Shown piece after piece: positions 11,174 to 26,319 of a DNA stretch of 61,955 bases (position 1 is the first letter of the stretch; the number at the start of each line of letters is the position of its first letter). Both the position numbers and the translations under genes were made by a program. A model generated the notes under the pieces. That model had not been told where the DNA came from, made no database searches, and was given only the letters and a program-made list of their open reading frames with translations. The stretch is from a virus, in IMG/VR virus record IMGVR_UViG_3300028364_000001, positions 1-61,955 of that record; one strand, given 5' to 3'.

Positions 11174-11677
11174 TTACCTCTGCTGCTGCCCGAAGAACCT
11201 GCCCGGTCCTCCGTCGTAAAACCCGCGATCTTCGCCGGACATGCGCTGCTCGGCAAGCCCTGAAATCCCGGTACCCTTACCTGACAGCCCCCTGCCTTTA
11301 CCGGCACCGGGTATGCCCATACCTCCTCCGAGCGCCATCTGGGCTCGCTCCCGCGTGGCGGCCTGCGCCGCGGCCAGTGCGTCGAAGTTCGGGGTGTTGA
11401 TGTTGATCTGCATGCCTGTAGGTGGAGCCTGCGGCGCTGCCATCATCTCTTGGGACGGCCGCACCCTGTTCAAGAGTTGTGACCCGTATAACTGCTGGGC
11501 GCTGGGAAGTAGCTGCGCCAGCCCCTGTGGCATGGCTTGTGGCATGGCCTGCTGGGGCGCCATGCCTTGCGGCATACCCGGTGGGGGCGCCATGCCTTGC
11601 GGCATACCCGGTGGGGGCGCCATGCCTTGCGGCATACCCGGTGGGGGCGCCATCCCCCCGCCTGTTGAAAACTCCAT
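11174..11677 (-). CDS. Met/Pro/Gln-rich protein with GMPQGMAPPP repeats
   Basis: 167 residues. The N-terminal 30 residues are three perfect ten-residue repeats (GMPQGMAPPP). The middle is Gln/Pro-rich; the C-terminus is Gly/Arg-rich (GKGRGLSGKGTGISG). Low complexity throughout; no fold is evident. It lies between terminase/11740-11952 and portal, where short-tailed phages often carry a structural or assembly factor. Confidence 0.55.
   Translation of the reverse strand: MEFSTGGGMAPPPGMPQGMAPPPGMPQGMAPPPGMPQGMAPQQAMPQAMPQGLAQLLPSAQQLYGSQLLNRVRPSQEMMAAPQAPPTGMQININTPNFDALAAAQAATRERAQMALGGGMGIPGAGKGRGLSGKGTGISGLAEQRMSGEDRGFYDGGPGRFFGQQQR
11561..11650. repeat. Three perfect 30-bp tandem repeats
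   Basis: Three identical 30-bp units in frame within the gene at 11174-11677, each coding ten residues. Copy number is likely to vary by slippage or recombination. Confidence 0.95.
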
Positions 11678-11739
11678 GGCTTACCTCGTCAGCATGTATG
11701 TTGGCCGCACTATAACAGCAAAGTGGCCTTGAGCGGAAG

Positions 11740-11952
11740 TCACTTGCTGGAGCCCTCTTCAGGGCTAATGAAGGCGTATGTCCGCTCAAGGTTCCTGATG
11801 CTGGCGTTGAGCATGTCGATCTCGGTTTTCACGAAGTGCGGGAGCTTGCGATGCGCAGTGTGCGCCCCGCTCTGGAGGAGCCTGCGCCGCCGCTTCCACA
11901 ACTCTGTGTATCTCGCCTGCATCTCAGTAGTAGGCTGCACGTTTCGGGACAT
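11740..11952 (-). CDS. Small charged helical protein downstream of terminase
   Basis: 70 residues from the ATG at 11952, inside the end of the terminase gene (29-base overlap). MQARYTELWKRRRRLLQSG then FVKTEIDMLNASIRNLERTY; helical and basic in the middle. No family recognised; the conserved position suggests a packaging or portal-related helper. Confidence 0.55.
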   Translation of the reverse strand: MSRNVQPTTEMQARYTELWKRRRRLLQSGAHTAHRKLPHFVKTEIDMLNASIRNLERTYAFISPEEGSSK

Positions 11953-14900
11953 ATTCGGTCTCGTCCTCATCCTCGTCTGTGGGCAGGCGGATAAACCCGC
12001 CCTGTCGGAACCTCGTCAGGGCCATCACTGCGGTATCCGCGAGGTCATCGTGGGCGCCGACCGGGAAACTCGCGATCTCCTCCACCAGCTCCTCGGCCCA
12101 ACGGGTCGTCGGCACCCAGACGATGCCTGCCAGCACGATATCTGCCACGGCCTGCATGCGCGCGAACTTGTTACCCGACCCACGGTGGGGGGTAAACTCC
12201 TGCAGCATCATGCCTGTGCGCCGCAATTCTTGAAACAGTGCCACCCCGGAGCTCTTTTTCTCCACGATGAACGCATCCGGCTCCCACTTCTGGTACAGCT
12301 CCGTGGCCAGCGCCCTCAGTTCAGGGTATTCGACCCGGCGCCGCACCGCGTCCAGCAGGATCAGGTTGTTCGTGCGCTCTTCCTCATGAAAAAACACGCC
12401 CCACGTGGTGATCGCGGTATAGTCGGCCTGTTCTTTCTGCTCCGCAGCAGCATCAAGTGCCATGATGATGTAATCCACCTCTGGTGGCTCGGTTCCCGTC
12501 CATATCCGCCACCATTCTCGTTTGATGAGCGCTGAACCTTCCGCCGTGGGGTCCTGCTGGTACTGGGCGTTCCACTGGAACGTGGGCATCGAGGCCTGCG
12601 TGCGGTGCAAGGCTGCCAGATCGAAGAACGCGGGCCACAACGCCTTCTCCTTGATCGTCCCATCAGGCTGCTTGATCTCCATGATGGCTGGAAACTCGAC
12701 CACCTCGTACTGATCGGCGTTGTCGTTCTGGGTCATGTCCTGCACGACTCGCCCCGTAAGGTCCAGGACATGCCAGCGAGTGTTATGGCTCACCAGCCCG
12801 TTCGCTATGAAGTTCTCCGTGCGGTTTATCTGGACATCGAACACTTCTTCCCGCCCTGCAGGGGTGATCGACTCAATCTGGTCTTCGGTGAAGTCGCAGG
12901 TACTCGGCAACCGCAAGGGCGGTCTCTGCAGTTTTTGCGTATCCGGCGGCAAGGTTGCAGTCGTTGCAGAGCAGGGCTCTGACATACCCTCCCTCGTGAC
13001 AGTGATCGACGCACAGTTTGTTGTTCCAGTGCGCCCGGGTGTTGTGCTTGCTGGGGGGTTGCTTGCAGATAGCACACTTGCCCTCTTGGGCGACCAGCAT
13101 CCTGTCGTGCTCCTCCATACTAAGCCCGTACCGGTGTTTAAGATGTATCCTGCGTCTGTCTTCGGGGCTCTGACTCCTCTTTCCAGATGCCCACAGGCTT
13201 TTGTTATAGTGGCTTCTGCAAAACCCTTTAGCTTTCGCAGGGGCATCACAGCCTTCGATAGAGCAGCTCTGGCCCACGTGCTTCCCCCAGTGACCCACAC
13301 CGCGCCGGGGCGCGTCGGGGTTCTTCCGGTGGTAGCAGTCGAAGGATTTGTGAGCCCCTCACTTGCTCCGCTTGGTTGTCGCGCTAGATGGGCGGTCGCA
13401 TCCTTCAGCGATACAACGAAATCCCCCGTCCTCAAGTCTTTCAGGCGTACCCATGCAGTCTCTCCCGTTTGTGTGCGGACCAAGAACGGATGTCGTTCGT
13501 TCGCCCTCACAACAATACCAGAAGTCATCTTGATTGCATATATGCAATCTATACCATTTGACTGATGGTTCACCACCTTCTCATAGTCTAGGCGCCCGTC
13601 GTCATATGTCGCAACGACGTCTCCGACGCGGATATCCCGCAGGGGCTTCCCGCGCCCGTCCTGCATGAGGACCGGGGTGTCGCCTGTCATGCACTGGACC
13701 AACGCCACGCAGCCCCCGGGCATGAGGCGTGTCCGCGCGCCGAAGGTGAACCATTGATATGCCTTGTCGAACACCTCGAAATTGCCCGCCAGCACGTCCT
13801 GCTCGGAGTGTGGGTCGTCGATGATCAGCATGTCCGCACCGCGCCCGGCCAGACTTGAGCCCACACCGGTGGCGTAATACTCGGACCCGTGGTTCGTGCT
13901 CCACCGGCCAGCCGACTTGGAGTCCTGTGCGAGGGTGATCCCTGCGAATATCTCCTGATACCGCGTGTCATTCATCAGGTTCCGCACCTTGCGGCCGAAG
14001 TCCACCGCCAGATCGGTGGTGTGGGACACCATCATGACCTTCTTGCCGGGGTTACGCCCAATGTACCACGCGGGGTAGTATATGGAGACAAGCTGCGAGT
14101 TGTGCGTGGGTGTCAGATTCCGGCCTACCAGATACAGCCCGTCCGGGCTGTCTACCTGAATGCAGTGCCCCACCTCCCCGTTGGGGTTCAGCCGGATAGC
14201 TGCGATTGCCTTCCTGCGCTGCGGGGCCAACCGTTTTATATGTTTGTGGGGGATGTGCACCGGTATATCAATGGTGGGCTGGAAACCCACATAATACACG
14301 ACTTGCCTGCCCACGATCCCGCTCGTCGATGTCGTTGGCGGTTGCTCATACATATAGGGCGCCTGCCCAAGCCCTGTCAGCATCTCCAGCAGGGAGTCCT
14401 TCAACGGGGCAGAACACGTGGCGATCCGCACGCGCCCGGTGCTGCGCTCGACGTGCCCGTCAGTGTCGATGAGCCCCGCCAAGAGATCGAGCCTCTGCTC
14501 CAGAGATGCCCTTATGTAGATGTCGGGTATGTGCTTGTTCCCCAACACCCCCACGTGCCGGAGAGTCTGTTTTATCCCTTGGTAGCAAAACCCTGCTGAT
14601 ATGACCCCGGTATCCTTGTGCACAGCCTCCCAAGTTACGCGAAACCCTCGGCGCTGCAGCTCTGCTCTAGGCTGCGGGTAGTCCGGGTGATATACGAAGT
14701 CAGGGTGCGTCGCCCGGCCGTCCCCTAACCAAACCCCCAAAAAGTATGGGTCCAGAGGCAGCTCTGCCACGGGAAACTCCAGAGGCGTGATTTCAGGTAG
14801 CTGGTATTGGAACCGATTGCCGTTGGTGAGGTTACGTGGCTGGCCAGCTGTGGGCCCGACCCTGCTTGGCTCTAGGAACCATTGGGTCTCCTGTGTTTCC

Positions 14901-15406
14901 CACACCCTTTTCGGGCGACTGTACACAGTCCACTCATGGGCCCCATGGCAGCGTATGGTATCCCCGTTGGTGAACTCCACCTCGTAGTCCGCAGGAGCGG
15001 TGTCGGACACTGCAAGCACCTCGACAGGTTCGCCCGACGGGTGAAACACATAGTCCCCTACCTGAAGCTCCCCGTGAGTTCTCCATCCGGCTGGTGTAAG
15101 GACGGGCGTGCTGTCTGCTACAAGTTTGCCGTGGCGAGGAGGCATGTTCACTGCCACCCGGTCCTTGGCGCCGTTATCCAGTGCCATAAGCTGGTCAGCG
15201 AGGATGCGGTGGTGTCGTCCCACCTTATAGTCAGGCTGCATATATTTGCAGAACGCGATCAAGTCGTCGTAGGCCGCTTGCCGGGCCGAGCGATCCTGCA
15301 GGTCGGAGACCATGGCCTCCACCTCCGCCGCCTCGTCGTGCGTCAGCTGGTCGATGTTTGCCAGCAAGGTGCGCAGCTCGGCTTCGGAGAACCCAACGTC
15401 AGACAT
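11924..15406 (-). CDS. terL: Large terminase subunit, interrupted by two inteins
   Basis: 1160 residues before splicing, about 514 after removal of inteins at residues 95-436 and 572-875. The extein has the DNA-packaging ATPase motifs: PPRHGK|SQ (Walker A, split by intein 1), MLIIDDPHSE (Walker B) and Q|TRWH (motif III, split by intein 2). It also has a C-terminal nuclease with MALDAAAEQ, FIVEKKSSG and HDDLADTAVMA. Both inteins sit in highly conserved catalytic motifs, so splicing should be essential for packaging. Its ATG overlaps the TGA of the upstream 53-residue gene (TGATG). Confidence 0.93.
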   Translation of the reverse strand: MSDVGFSEAELRTLLANIDQLTHDEAAEVEAMVSDLQDRSARQAAYDDLIAFCKYMQPDYKVGRHHRILADQLMALDNGAKDRVAVNMPPRHGKLVADSTPVLTPAGWRTHGELQVGDYVFHPSGEPVEVLAVSDTAPADYEVEFTNGDTIRCHGAHEWTVYSRPKRVWETQETQWFLEPSRVGPTAGQPRNLTNGNRFQYQLPEITPLEFPVAELPLDPYFLGVWLGDGRATHPDFVYHPDYPQPRAELQRRGFRVTWEAVHKDTGVISAGFCYQGIKQTLRHVGVLGNKHIPDIYIRASLEQRLDLLAGLIDTDGHVERSTGRVRIATCSAPLKDSLLEMLTGLGQAPYMYEQPPTTSTSGIVGRQVVYYVGFQPTIDIPVHIPHKHIKRLAPQRRKAIAAIRLNPNGEVGHCIQVDSPDGLYLVGRNLTPTHNSQLVSIYYPAWYIGRNPGKKVMMVSHTTDLAVDFGRKVRNLMNDTRYQEIFAGITLAQDSKSAGRWSTNHGSEYYATGVGSSLAGRGADMLIIDDPHSEQDVLAGNFEVFDKAYQWFTFGARTRLMPGGCVALVQCMTGDTPVLMQDGRGKPLRDIRVGDVVATYDDGRLDYEKVVNHQSNGIDCIYAIKMTSGIVVRANERHPFLVRTQTGETAWVRLKDLRTGDFVVSLKDATAHLARQPSGASEGLTNPSTATTGRTPTRPGAVWVTGGSTWARAALSKAVMPLRKLKGFAEATITKACGHLERGVRAPKTDAGYILNTGTGLVWRSTTGCWSPKRASVLSASNPPASTTPGRTGTTNCASITVTREGMSEPCSATTATLPPDTQKLQRPPLRLPSTCDFTEDQIESITPAGREEVFDVQINRTENFIANGLVSHNTRWHVLDLTGRVVQDMTQNDNADQYEVVEFPAIMEIKQPDGTIKEKALWPAFFDLAALHRTQASMPTFQWNAQYQQDPTAEGSALIKREWWRIWTGTEPPEVDYIIMALDAAAEQKEQADYTAITTWGVFFHEEERTNNLILLDAVRRRVEYPELRALATELYQKWEPDAFIVEKKSSGVALFQELRRTGMMLQEFTPHRGSGNKFARMQAVADIVLAGIVWVPTTRWAEELVEEIASFPVGAHDDLADTAVMALTRFRQGGFIRLPTDEDEDETEYVPKRAAYY
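12782..13693 (-). mobile_element. Intein 2 of TerL (TRWH motif), linker also encodes an endonuclease out of frame
   Basis: 304 residues, starting Cys (CMTGDTPVLMQDG) and ending VSHN before Thr of TRWH. Block A, block B (ANERHPFLV) and block F (EEVFDVQINRTENFIANG) are present, so it should be a class 1 intein. In its own frame the roughly 145-residue linker is a Thr/Ser/Pro-rich sequence with no recognisable fold. The same DNA read two bases later encodes an endonuclease VII-like protein. Confidence 0.88.
12873..13298 (-). CDS. Endonuclease VII/HNH-like homing endonuclease nested out of frame in TerL intein 2
   Basis: 141 codons from a GTG at 13298, same strand as terL but shifted. Zn ligands: CSIEGC...CRSH, then CAICKQPP...LCVDHCHEGG and LLCNDCN, the pattern of recombination endonuclease VII-type HNH proteins. 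The stop falls just as the intein C-terminal splicing block begins. In the same frame upstream, an ATG at 13454 with GGGAGA before it starts another C-x3-GC finger but meets a TGA at 13361-13359. The 5' end may therefore be nonsense-mutated, and the GTG start is uncertain. Confidence 0.75.
   Translation of the reverse strand: MGHWGKHVGQSCSIEGCDAPAKAKGFCRSHYNKSLWASGKRSQSPEDRRRIHLKHRYGLSMEEHDRMLVAQEGKCAICKQPPSKHNTRAHWNNKLCVDHCHEGGYVRALLCNDCNLAAGYAKTAETALAVAEYLRLHRRPD
14099..15124 (-). mobile_element. Intein 1 of TerL (Walker A), class 3-like, with in-frame LAGLIDADG domain
   Basis: 342 residues between K and S of the P-loop. The first residue is Leu, not Cys/Ser/Ala, yet the block A pattern (STPVLTPAGW...GELQVGD) is clear. 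The class 3 hallmark triad is present: Trp65 two residues after the block B His (HGAHEW), Cys321 at block F position 4 (GHCIQV) and Thr340 before the terminal His-Asn. Two dodecapeptide motifs (FLGVWLGDG and LAGLIDTDG) show an in-frame homing endonuclease. The downstream extein residue is Ser. Confidence 0.85.
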
Positions 15407-24159: not shown

Positions 24160-26319
24160 ATGTTTGGGAACGGAAAACTTACACCAGAGCAACGCCTCCA
24201 GAAGGCGGTCATTGCGATCATGCATCACGACAGATACCGCGCCTTGGCGGGGGTGCTGATGATCGGCAGTCGCAAGGTGGGCACCCATCTGGGTCGCACC
24301 GCTGTGGACACCGCCGCCACAAACGGCATGGACGAGATGTACAACCCCGATTTCATCACGTCGCTCAAGGACTCGGAGCTGCGGTTCCTCGTGCTGCACG
24401 AGAACTACCACAAGCTGTACAAGCACCTGACCACATGGCGGTGGATGTATCTGCGCCATAAGCAGGCGGCCAATGCTGCCTGCGTGGTCGGGGAGACCCT
24501 TATCACGATGGCAGACGGATCGTTTCGTGCCGCCGAAAACATTCGGGTTGGGGATAAGGTGCGGACCCCGTTTGGTCCTGCGCCCGTGCTCGCTGTCAAG
24601 GCCACTGACAACCGTCAAGTATGCGAACTTGACATGGGTATGGGATATAAACTACAATGTACCCCTGACCATAAACTACTGACGGATCGTGGATATGTCG
24701 AAGCCCAATGCCTCACAGAAGCGGATACAATCTACTTGGACGCCGGAGATGGACGCCTTTGTGAAGGAGAATCATGGCGTCATGCAGATCAAAGATATGG
24801 CCCCACACTTGGGGGTGACGGCAATGTCTGTGTACCACAGGCTGCGGAAGCTGGGCTTGGCGTCTACTCGGATGACCGTGAAACAGCAATCGCTGAAAGG
24901 CTTGGGTCTCTGGCAGCCTACGGACTGGGCGTACTTCGCCGGCTTGGTGGACGGGGAGGGCACGGTTACGTGCCAGATCACACAGGGCAAGTACCTGAGG
25001 CCAACACTATCCGTGACCAATACGAGCTACAGCTTAATGCTTTGGTTGGAGTCGCTGGGGATGTATTGTGTGCTGGCCCGAAACAACTACGGCAATATGT
25101 ACTGGAAGGCGGAGGTTTCGGGCTTCGGGATATTGCCGGTGCTGGAGGGGATACGCCCTTGGGTGAAGATACGGACCCGTCGCTACGATATACTCATGGA
25201 GATAATCCGCATCCGAACCTCGGCGGGCTACCGTTTCCAGCCGACTACCGCCATCATCTCCTTGTTAGCGGAATTGAAGGCCTTGAACCTGCGAGGCTCA
25301 CAGTTAGAAGATTCCTTGGCGAGAGCCGGAGAGTCTACGACATCACTACGCCCGCACAGTGTTTTGTTGCAAACGGGGTAGTCGTGCACAATTGCGATTT
25401 TGTCATCAACATCAAGCTGGTGGACGACAACAAGACTGACCGCTTCGCCACCATGACAGGGGGCCTGCTGATCGGCTGCTTCGACGAGAAATATAGAGAC
25501 TGGGACAGCGCTGCGGTGTTCCACGACCTGCTCAAGAACGCCAAGCAAGGCGGGGGTGGCGGCCAAGGCGAACCCGGCCAACCCGGCGAACCCGGCGAAG
25601 GCGAACCGGGCCAAGGCTTCGACGCCCACGACTGGGACGGGGCGCAGGACATGCCCGATGCTGACAAGCAGGCGCTGGCACGCGACATCGACGAGGCGAT
25701 CCGCCAAGGCGCGCTGATGGCAGGCAAGACCGGGTCAGGCGGTGACAGGTCACTTGATGATCTGATGCAGCCACAGGTGGACTGGCGCACGGCGCTGCGC
25801 GACTTCATCACCACGACCTGCGCAGGGTCTGACTTCTCCACGTGGAAGCGGCCCAACCGTCGCTTCATCGGCGCGGGCTACTACATGCCCAGTGGCATCA
25901 CGGAGCGTGTCAAGGATATCTGCGTGGCCGTGGACACCTCGGGGTCCATCAGAGGGCCGCAACTGGCATCGTTTCTGAGCGAGGTCCGGGGCATCGCCGA
26001 CTCCGTGCGGCCCGAGCGCATCCACCTGCTGTACTGGGACACGGCAGTGTGCCGCCACGAGGTGTATCTGGAGCAGGACCTGCACAACTTGGTCCAGTCG
26101 ACCAAGCCCGAGGGCGGCGGAGGCACCATGGTCGAGTGCGTGCCGGAGTTCCTCAACAAGATGGGGATCACCCCACAAGCGGTTATCGTGCTGACCGACG
26201 GCTACCTCGGCGGCAGCTGGGGCACGTGGACCTGTCCGGTCCTGTGGACCATCCTCGACAACAAGAGCGCCCGCCCTGACCACGGGGCAACGGTGCACAT
26301 CAAGGGTCACGAGCTGTGA
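24160..26319 (+). CDS. Metallopeptidase-VWA protein (DUF2201-like) interrupted by an intein
   Basis: 719 residues, 415 after removal of the intein at residues 108-411. The N-terminal domain has HENYH (residues 80-84), a zinc HExxH motif, and the split segment AANAA|CDFVIN. A Gly/Pro/Glu-rich linker (GQGEPGQPGEPGEG) follows. The C-terminal VWA-like domain has the metal-site motif DTSGS (D592) and later IVLTDGYLGG. This is the arrangement of DUF2201 proteins, partners of MoxR ATPases. Stop overlaps MIW-GDG copy 6 (GTGA). Confidence 0.85.
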   Translation: MFGNGKLTPEQRLQKAVIAIMHHDRYRALAGVLMIGSRKVGTHLGRTAVDTAATNGMDEMYNPDFITSLKDSELRFLVLHENYHKLYKHLTTWRWMYLRHKQAANAACVVGETLITMADGSFRAAENIRVGDKVRTPFGPAPVLAVKATDNRQVCELDMGMGYKLQCTPDHKLLTDRGYVEAQCLTEADTIYLDAGDGRLCEGESWRHADQRYGPTLGGDGNVCVPQAAEAGLGVYSDDRETAIAERLGSLAAYGLGVLRRLGGRGGHGYVPDHTGQVPEANTIRDQYELQLNALVGVAGDVLCAGPKQLRQYVLEGGGFGLRDIAGAGGDTPLGEDTDPSLRYTHGDNPHPNLGGLPFPADYRHHLLVSGIEGLEPARLTVRRFLGESRRVYDITTPAQCFVANGVVVHNCDFVINIKLVDDNKTDRFATMTGGLLIGCFDEKYRDWDSAAVFHDLLKNAKQGGGGGQGEPGQPGEPGEGEPGQGFDAHDWDGAQDMPDADKQALARDIDEAIRQGALMAGKTGSGGDRSLDDLMQPQVDWRTALRDFITTTCAGSDFSTWKRPNRRFIGAGYYMPSGITERVKDICVAVDTSGSIRGPQLASFLSEVRGIADSVRPERIHLLYWDTAVCRHEVYLEQDLHNLVQSTKPEGGGGTMVECVPEFLNKMGITPQAVIVLTDGYLGGSWGTWTCPVLWTILDNKSARPDHGATVHIKGHEL
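24481..25392 (+). mobile_element. Intein in the VWA protein, linker also encodes a LAGLIDADG enzyme out of frame
   Basis: 304 residues. Cys1 (CVVGETLITMADGS), block A ...IRVGDKV, block B CTPDHKLLT, block F RVYDITTPAQCFVANG, ends VVVHN before extein Cys. All splicing residues of a class 1 intein are present. The in-frame linker (about residues 80-275) has no recognisable fold; the +1 frame carries the endonuclease. Confidence 0.88.
24695..25381 (+). CDS. LAGLIDADG homing endonuclease nested out of frame in the VWA intein
   Basis: 228 residues from the ATG at 24695 (a GTG at 24689 is also possible), in the +1 frame relative to the VWA gene. The N-terminal TWTPEMDAFVKENHG and HLGVTAMSVYHRLRKLGL form an HTH. 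Then AYFAGLVDGEGTV is a LAGLIDADG motif, followed by a typical beta-rich core and ILMEIIRIR. Only one dodecapeptide is seen, so it should act as a dimer. The frame ends only 11 bases before the intein end. Ribosome site weak. Confidence 0.82.
   Translation: MSKPNASQKRIQSTWTPEMDAFVKENHGVMQIKDMAPHLGVTAMSVYHRLRKLGLASTRMTVKQQSLKGLGLWQPTDWAYFAGLVDGEGTVTCQITQGKYLRPTLSVTNTSYSLMLWLESLGMYCVLARNNYGNMYWKAEVSGFGILPVLEGIRPWVKIRTRRYDILMEIIRIRTSAGYRFQPTTAIISLLAELKALNLRGSQLEDSLARAGESTTSLRPHSVLLQTG

Follow-up and report, generated by a model that had tools for sequence, protein, structure and literature searches.

Inteins are the standard example of two activities joined in a single polypeptide, and among the split inteins known as 'fractured genes' a free-standing endonuclease gene lies between the two intein halves. 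In canonical inteins with a homing endonuclease (HEN) a LAGLIDADG or HNH domain is encoded in frame, its DNA lying between splicing blocks B and F (PMC6801210). Out-of-frame HNH genes in phage insertions have already been published: the ShiLan domain and the Pacc40 insertion are such genes within phage methylase genes, where the insertion is stop-free in the host frame, a zinc-finger HNH is encoded in another frame and the distribution is homing-like (PMC11855218, 2025). These insertions are without a detectable splicing domain or intron and without a recognisable ribosome-binding site. The closest described inteins are those of the terminase large subunit (TerL) at site TerL6-f in cluster B3/B4 mycobacteriophages, of which that of Chandler gp6 is reported to splice in an MBP-intein-GFP reporter (PMC5050341). 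The endonuclease tests of that paper concern two different inteins in which a HEN domain can be identified, and its accessible parts make no mention of a hidden out-of-frame nuclease gene.

The intein described here (intein 2) occupies the same C-motif site and belongs to the same family as the TerL6-f inteins, and in Chandler the nested gene is likewise present, with an identical register. Its nuclease DNA lies between blocks B and F as in canonical HEN inteins, however the nuclease is encoded in a different frame as a polypeptide of its own and need not fold within the intein. As in the 'fractured genes' a separate nuclease gene sits between two intein halves, but those host genes are split into two parts whereas here one continuous host frame is overlapped by the nuclease gene. 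Unlike in ShiLan and Pacc40 the host frame is a true intein and most members have a Shine-Dalgarno (SD)-like motif, and a gene of this kind within a true intein is a new variation on the published theme. The arrangement was not found described in the literature searched; two works lay outside that search, the preprint 10.1101/2025.01.02.630785 (Gosselin, Arsenault and Gogarten), entitled as a work on actinobacteriophage inteins with a 'Non-Canonical Architecture', and Gorbalenya 1998. Both are cited in PMC11855218 for overlapping frames in actinobacteriophages, the preprint in support of such frames being frequent there, and part of the arrangement in the actinobacteriophage members may already be described in them, so that priority is uncertain.

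The window, meaning the whole stretch of DNA analysed, is a viral record 61,955 bases in length, in which terL is a single continuous ORF on the minus strand despite its two inteins. The features of the locus, in window positions and with a slash marking the end of an intein, are as follows.

11924-15406, minus strand: terL, terminase large subunit, two inteins, 1160 aa precursor (Terminase_6C 9e-11, Pfam, aa 983-1131; empty-site homologues of the joined exteins)
12782-13693, minus strand: intein 2, 304 aa, Cys1...SHN/T, at the TerL C-motif, TerL6-f in PMC5050341 (Pfam Intein_splicing; alignment)
13385-13693, minus strand: N-terminal splicing half of intein 2, residues 1-103 (AlphaFold pLDDT 88-97, Hint fold)
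12782-12898, minus strand: C-terminal splicing half of intein 2, residues 266-304 (pLDDT 93-97; PDB sequence match to the NpuDnaB intein, 6e-15)
12899-13384, minus strand: overlap of a disordered linker, read in the intein frame, with the nuclease gene of frame +2 (pLDDT about 33; open in 56 of 56 lineages)
12873-13298, minus strand: nested endonuclease VII/HNH ORF, 141 codons, GTG 13298 to TGA (PF02945 4.3e-16; conserved zinc and catalytic residues)
12894-13145, minus strand: endonuclease VII domain proper, nested protein residues 52-135 (Pfam match range)
13209-13265, minus strand: zinc finger C-x4-C-x9-C-x2-H, nested protein residues 12-30 (C12, C17, C27 and H30 invariant in the family)
13452-13454, minus strand: ancestral nested start ATG, on the TGG of the intein's conserved Trp81 (position common to 91 of 94 loci)
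13462-13466, minus strand: GGGAG, SD-like, upstream of the ancestral start (from the sequence; motif in 69 of 93 loci)
13359-13361, minus strand: in-frame TGA of the nested frame at the position of a zinc-finger Cys codon (TGC in contigs L003, L004 and L005; identical in L002)

Intein 2 runs from aa 572 of the TerL ORF (Cys, CMTGDTPVL) to aa 875 (SHN/TRWH) and is inserted before TRWH, a precise insertion in a conserved host motif of which intein-less alleles exist. The original prediction of an intein at TRWH with Cys1, blocks A, B and F and a terminal His-Asn is borne out by the Intein_splicing profile (aa 605-875 of the ORF, 1.7e-15, Pfam), the modelled Hint fold and the alignment. The class 1 features Cys1, block B RHPF, C-terminal FIAN, SHN/T and N304 are all present, and in an alignment of 32 members they are invariant or nearly so. 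The best PDB matches of the model are the Ssp and Npu DnaB and Mtu RecA mini-inteins (Foldseek, E down to 2e-9), with AlphaFold confidence above pLDDT 88 for residues 1-103 and 266-304 and about 33 for residues 104-265. Judged from these profiles and models the splicing domain is an intact Hint domain and splicing of the window copy is predicted.

Read in a frame offset by two bases (+2), the linker encodes an endonuclease VII-like zinc protein as had been predicted, with a score against Endonuclease_7 (PF02945) of 59.0 bits (4.3e-16) compared with a curated cut-off of 23.6, a PDB profile match and conserved zinc ligands. Its best solved relative is T4 endonuclease VII (PF02945; PDB 1e7d, 1en7; profile E 7e-8), which also ranks first in a fold search of modest scores (Foldseek, E 0.011). 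The two share a zinc-binding CxxC...CxxC core and a DH...N motif, represented in the nested protein by C75, C78, D98, H99, C111, C114 and N115, which are invariant in the family; the residue equivalence was drawn from the PDB profile alignment and general knowledge. Unlike the T4 enzyme the nested nuclease has extra N-terminal zinc fingers, one being present in many of its relatives, lacks the long C-terminal part, lies in an intein and is presumed to act in site-specific homing as opposed to junction resolution. The stop TGA (12875-12873) falls just 5' of the C-terminal splicing block, again as predicted.

The gene of about 141 codons that had been proposed is present as an ORF from GTG 13298 to 12873 but is N-terminally truncated relative to its relatives, and the proposed span 13454-12873 is not one open frame in the window, being interrupted by the TGA at 13361-13359 where relatives have a Cys codon. 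In L004 the ancestral ATG opens an intact nested gene of 193 codons. Contig L002 is identical to the window over 7,880 bases and this confirms the TGA base, but L002 may be the same virus. Comparison of the window with L004 gives 9 amino-acid changes in the 52 codons before GTG 13298 (an even 5, 4 and 6 changes by codon position) and 4 in the 141-codon core (2, 2 and 9), a difference with a Fisher p of 0.0012 on small numbers, whereas the divergence of the two parts is similar in 40 other pairs, at 0.23 and 0.19. On these small numbers the N-terminal part looks released from constraint with the core still constrained. No SD-like motif was seen before GTG 13298. From its sequence the 141-codon ORF is a truncated form whose N-terminal zinc finger was lost through the TGA, and this allele may yield a shortened nuclease from GTG 13298 or may be a gene entering decay.

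In order to place the locus in its family we collected about 100 loci by searches based on the nested protein, on the N-half of the intein and on phage records, and analysed the 94 that have a complete nested region. The same +2 register is found in 94 of 94 and the intein frame is open from Cys1 to N/T-R-W in 91, the exceptions being L108 and L147, which have a frame break, and L172, which is open with a divergent end motif. Every locus with a nested nuclease has this register except L007, where the intein N-half and the nuclease share one frame and terL carries several frame breaks, as expected of poor assembly. Members include the complete isolate genomes Phlyer, Chandler, Vincenzo, Angelicage, Nordenberg and phi1_186018 and dozens of independent contigs; the nested gene of Chandler has 152 codons and begins with a GTG on the Trp codon. 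After dereplication at <75% nested identity the intein frame is stop-free over 150-200 codons in all 56 lineages, compared with 12.2 expected under synonymous shuffling, while the third frame of the same lineages holds 3-36 stops and the equivalent frame is open in 0 of 68 free-standing endonuclease VII controls from outside the intein family. The region codes in two frames. As the lineages share ancestry and are not fully independent, a summed log10 P of -53 exaggerates the strength of the evidence and should not be taken for a probability. For the window by itself, the intein frame would stay open by chance in about 12% of synonymous-shuffling trials of the nested gene (about 0.12), so that the case rests on the family and one window is not convincing. 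Taken across the family, this comparative evidence indicates that the out-of-frame layout is ancient and maintained and no reading accident.

The distribution of the element was assessed from its empty sites. A precise empty site is spanned by 73 contigs, the closest of which (L179) is 88% identical with identity lowest within 30 bases either side of the junction, a dip in this one pair such as short co-conversion would leave. Among cluster B3 mycobacteriophages the empty site occurs in at least 28 records with 98-99.6% identity to the joined flanks of Chandler, and intein-less sister phages include Daisy, Kamiyu and Bernardo, so near-identical phages differ in the presence of the element, and empty sites in such sister phages indicate mobility. 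Divergent phages resemble each other more in the intein and nuclease than in the exteins, with extein identities of, for example, 20-28% against nuclease identities of 58-66% (28% and 66% for L097 and L168). Matches in Gordonia and Mycobacterium phages and in bacterial contigs of Anaerolineae, Gallionellaceae, Nonomuraea, Mycolicibacterium and others show, at the level of sequence matches, a broad range for the family.

Our main reading, to which we give a probability of roughly 0.85, is that of a mobile intein whose homing endonuclease has been set apart from the intein polypeptide through the use of a different reading frame. The TerL frame would provide the Hint domain and a long disordered linker where homing endonuclease domains usually sit, and the precursor would splice to release mature TerL. 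Frame +2 would be translated from its own start, an ATG or GTG on the Trp TGG usually with an SD-like motif, into a separate zinc-finger endonuclease VII/HNH nuclease that would cut intein-less terL alleles at or near the C-motif insertion site, and repair from the intein-bearing copy would transfer the intein. The nuclease gene is encoded within the element that it would mobilise, this element is present or absent among close relatives, and the nuclease probably spreads the insert. The core of the original prediction is further backed by the roughly 100 loci, the conserved start, the ribosome-binding-like motif and the codon-position bias described below. Every computational check applied to this core was passed, and neither of the outcomes named beforehand as refuting it was obtained, the nested frame matching the profile and the family member Chandler gp6 being reported to splice. 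What we infer is that the nested gene is translated, that its product cuts specifically and that homing follows, the last being a step of this kind since endonuclease VII is known above all for resolving branched DNA.

The nested gene could instead be a working resolvase of branched DNA kept with terL for the benefit of the phage rather than for homing, a reading we consider unlikely though it fares best among the alternatives. T4 endonuclease VII clears DNA for packaging, and it is the closest solved relative of a nuclease that has a long-conserved catalytic motif and is housed in the gene of the packaging motor. The whole element is however absent from near-identical sister phages, several relatives have deleted the nuclease only, and a RuvC-like resolvase gene lies a few genes away in the Phlyer, Vincenzo, phi1_186018 and Chandler loci. 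The location inside an intein and the spread between divergent TerLs also fit a mobile element better.

The pattern of substitution bears on whether the nested frame is alive. Mismatches per nested codon position are 0.38, 0.36 and 0.59 among 11 lineages, and sum to 1281, 784 and 2552 over 40 closer pairs. The most variable site is nested position 3, which is position 2 of the intein frame, and this points to purifying selection on the nuclease with the intein-frame linker mainly having to stay open. The linker contains 37% S, T, P and A compared with 22% in the N-half because the nested wobble base is the second position of the intein codon. In the mini-inteins L148 (140 aa) and L116 (144 aa) the nuclease is deleted with the TerL frame preserved, indicating that the splicing part is kept without the nuclease. 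Both frames are maintained.

A dead relic, in which a once in-frame endonuclease domain was frameshifted out and is no longer expressed, is in our view less probable again than the resolvase. Such an origin would agree with endonuclease domains normally being in frame in inteins (PMC6801210), with the TGA of the window copy and with L007, which has the nuclease and N-half in one frame. Set against this are the register, start codon and SD-like motif conserved over 56 lineages and the excess of change at nested third positions, and the several frame breaks of the L007 terL resemble poor assembly. An in-frame endonuclease VII ancestor was not found among the weaker TerL intein relatives of Caulobacter, Brevundimonas, Corynebacterium and Acinetobacter phages, and inspection of the long alternative-frame ORFs in these inteins revealed no recognisable nested endonuclease VII.

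The start of the nested gene is conserved. A start codon stands at one homologous position in 91 of 94 loci (ATG in 84, GTG in 7), composed of the last base of the preceding codon and the TG of the TGG for an invariant intein Trp, and in 82 loci it is the only in-frame start. GGAG, GAGG or AGGA precedes it in 69 of 93 loci compared with 7.5% at control positions. Frameshifting is common in phages and the N-half ends within the nested frame, so a nuclease made without its own start as a fusion to the N-half by programmed frameshifting has to be weighed. It ranks marginally below the relic in our estimation, set against a start codon with an SD-like motif at the same position in nearly all loci and nested-frame stops upstream of the start in the members inspected. 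From this sequence evidence a conserved start of its own appears to explain nested expression better than frameshifting or leaderless initiation. An assembly artefact concealing true sequences with the nuclease in frame might be suspected from the intein frame breaks in three loci (L007, L108 and L147) but is refuted by the isolate genomes named above. These have the same register, as do dozens of contigs that are independent of one another, and it is not credible that each would contain two compensating errors of one kind.

Two other inteins lie in the window. Intein 1 of TerL (15124-14099, minus strand, aa 95-436, 342 aa) follows the P-loop lysine (HGK/S), begins at a Leu, and as its LAGLIDADG motifs are encoded in the TerL frame this second intein of the same gene is not an out-of-frame case. 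It seems to show a class 3 Trp-Cys-Thr pattern. In relative L005 the intein at the same P-loop site is only 33% identical, which suggests that the allele was exchanged between close phages. The DUF2201/VWA-domain gene carries an intein of 305 aa (24478-25392, plus strand; matched to the splicing domain at 6e-9, narrowly above the Pfam cut-off), which we take to be the other case for which the same architecture with a different nuclease family had been claimed. A nested +1-frame ORF of 230 codons is indeed present (24689-25381, plus strand), but its LAGLIDADG-like stretch does not reach the Pfam cut-off (E 0.053), and both frames are open in the sole relative found (L178/L264, 97% nucleotide identity). 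This nested ORF has a possible helix-turn-helix segment. From its sequence the nested nuclease here is suggestive and not established; were it real the layout would have arisen at least twice with unrelated nucleases. The claim that both inteins are exactly 304 residues does not hold for this 305 aa intein, and with a family range of 140-305 aa near-equality of length means nothing. Elsewhere in the data, tandem GMAPPPGMPQ-type repeats (11420-11680, minus strand) occupy the start of ORF 11677-11174 downstream of terL, and Corynebacterium phage Stickynote (L261:1788-2204) has a free-standing HNH gene just before a terL with a mini-intein.

The finding that stands is larger than first noted, a long-lived intein family with an overlapping and separately started nuclease gene. 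It offers an example of dual-frame coding in phages that is long-lived and well sampled, and a ready laboratory system in Mycobacterium smegmatis mc2 155, where Chandler-type phages can be set against sister phages with a near-identical empty site. The natural deletion derivatives L148:953-1372, L116:1775-2206 and L111:1769-2443, in which the nested nuclease is partly or wholly gone and the TerL frame is open, are ready-made splicing controls. With some reserve we lean towards the broader view of a widespread intein class in phages of several bacterial phyla, mobilised by a nuclease independently translated from the overlapping linker frame so that splicing and homing evolve as two proteins, to which a second, LAGLIDADG-like type in the DUF2201 gene of the same phage may have arrived independently. 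On this reading a homing nuclease can lie hidden in the linker of an intein as an overlapping gene with its own initiation, and as in-frame protein searches miss such a gene, inteins filed as endonuclease-less may be mobile.
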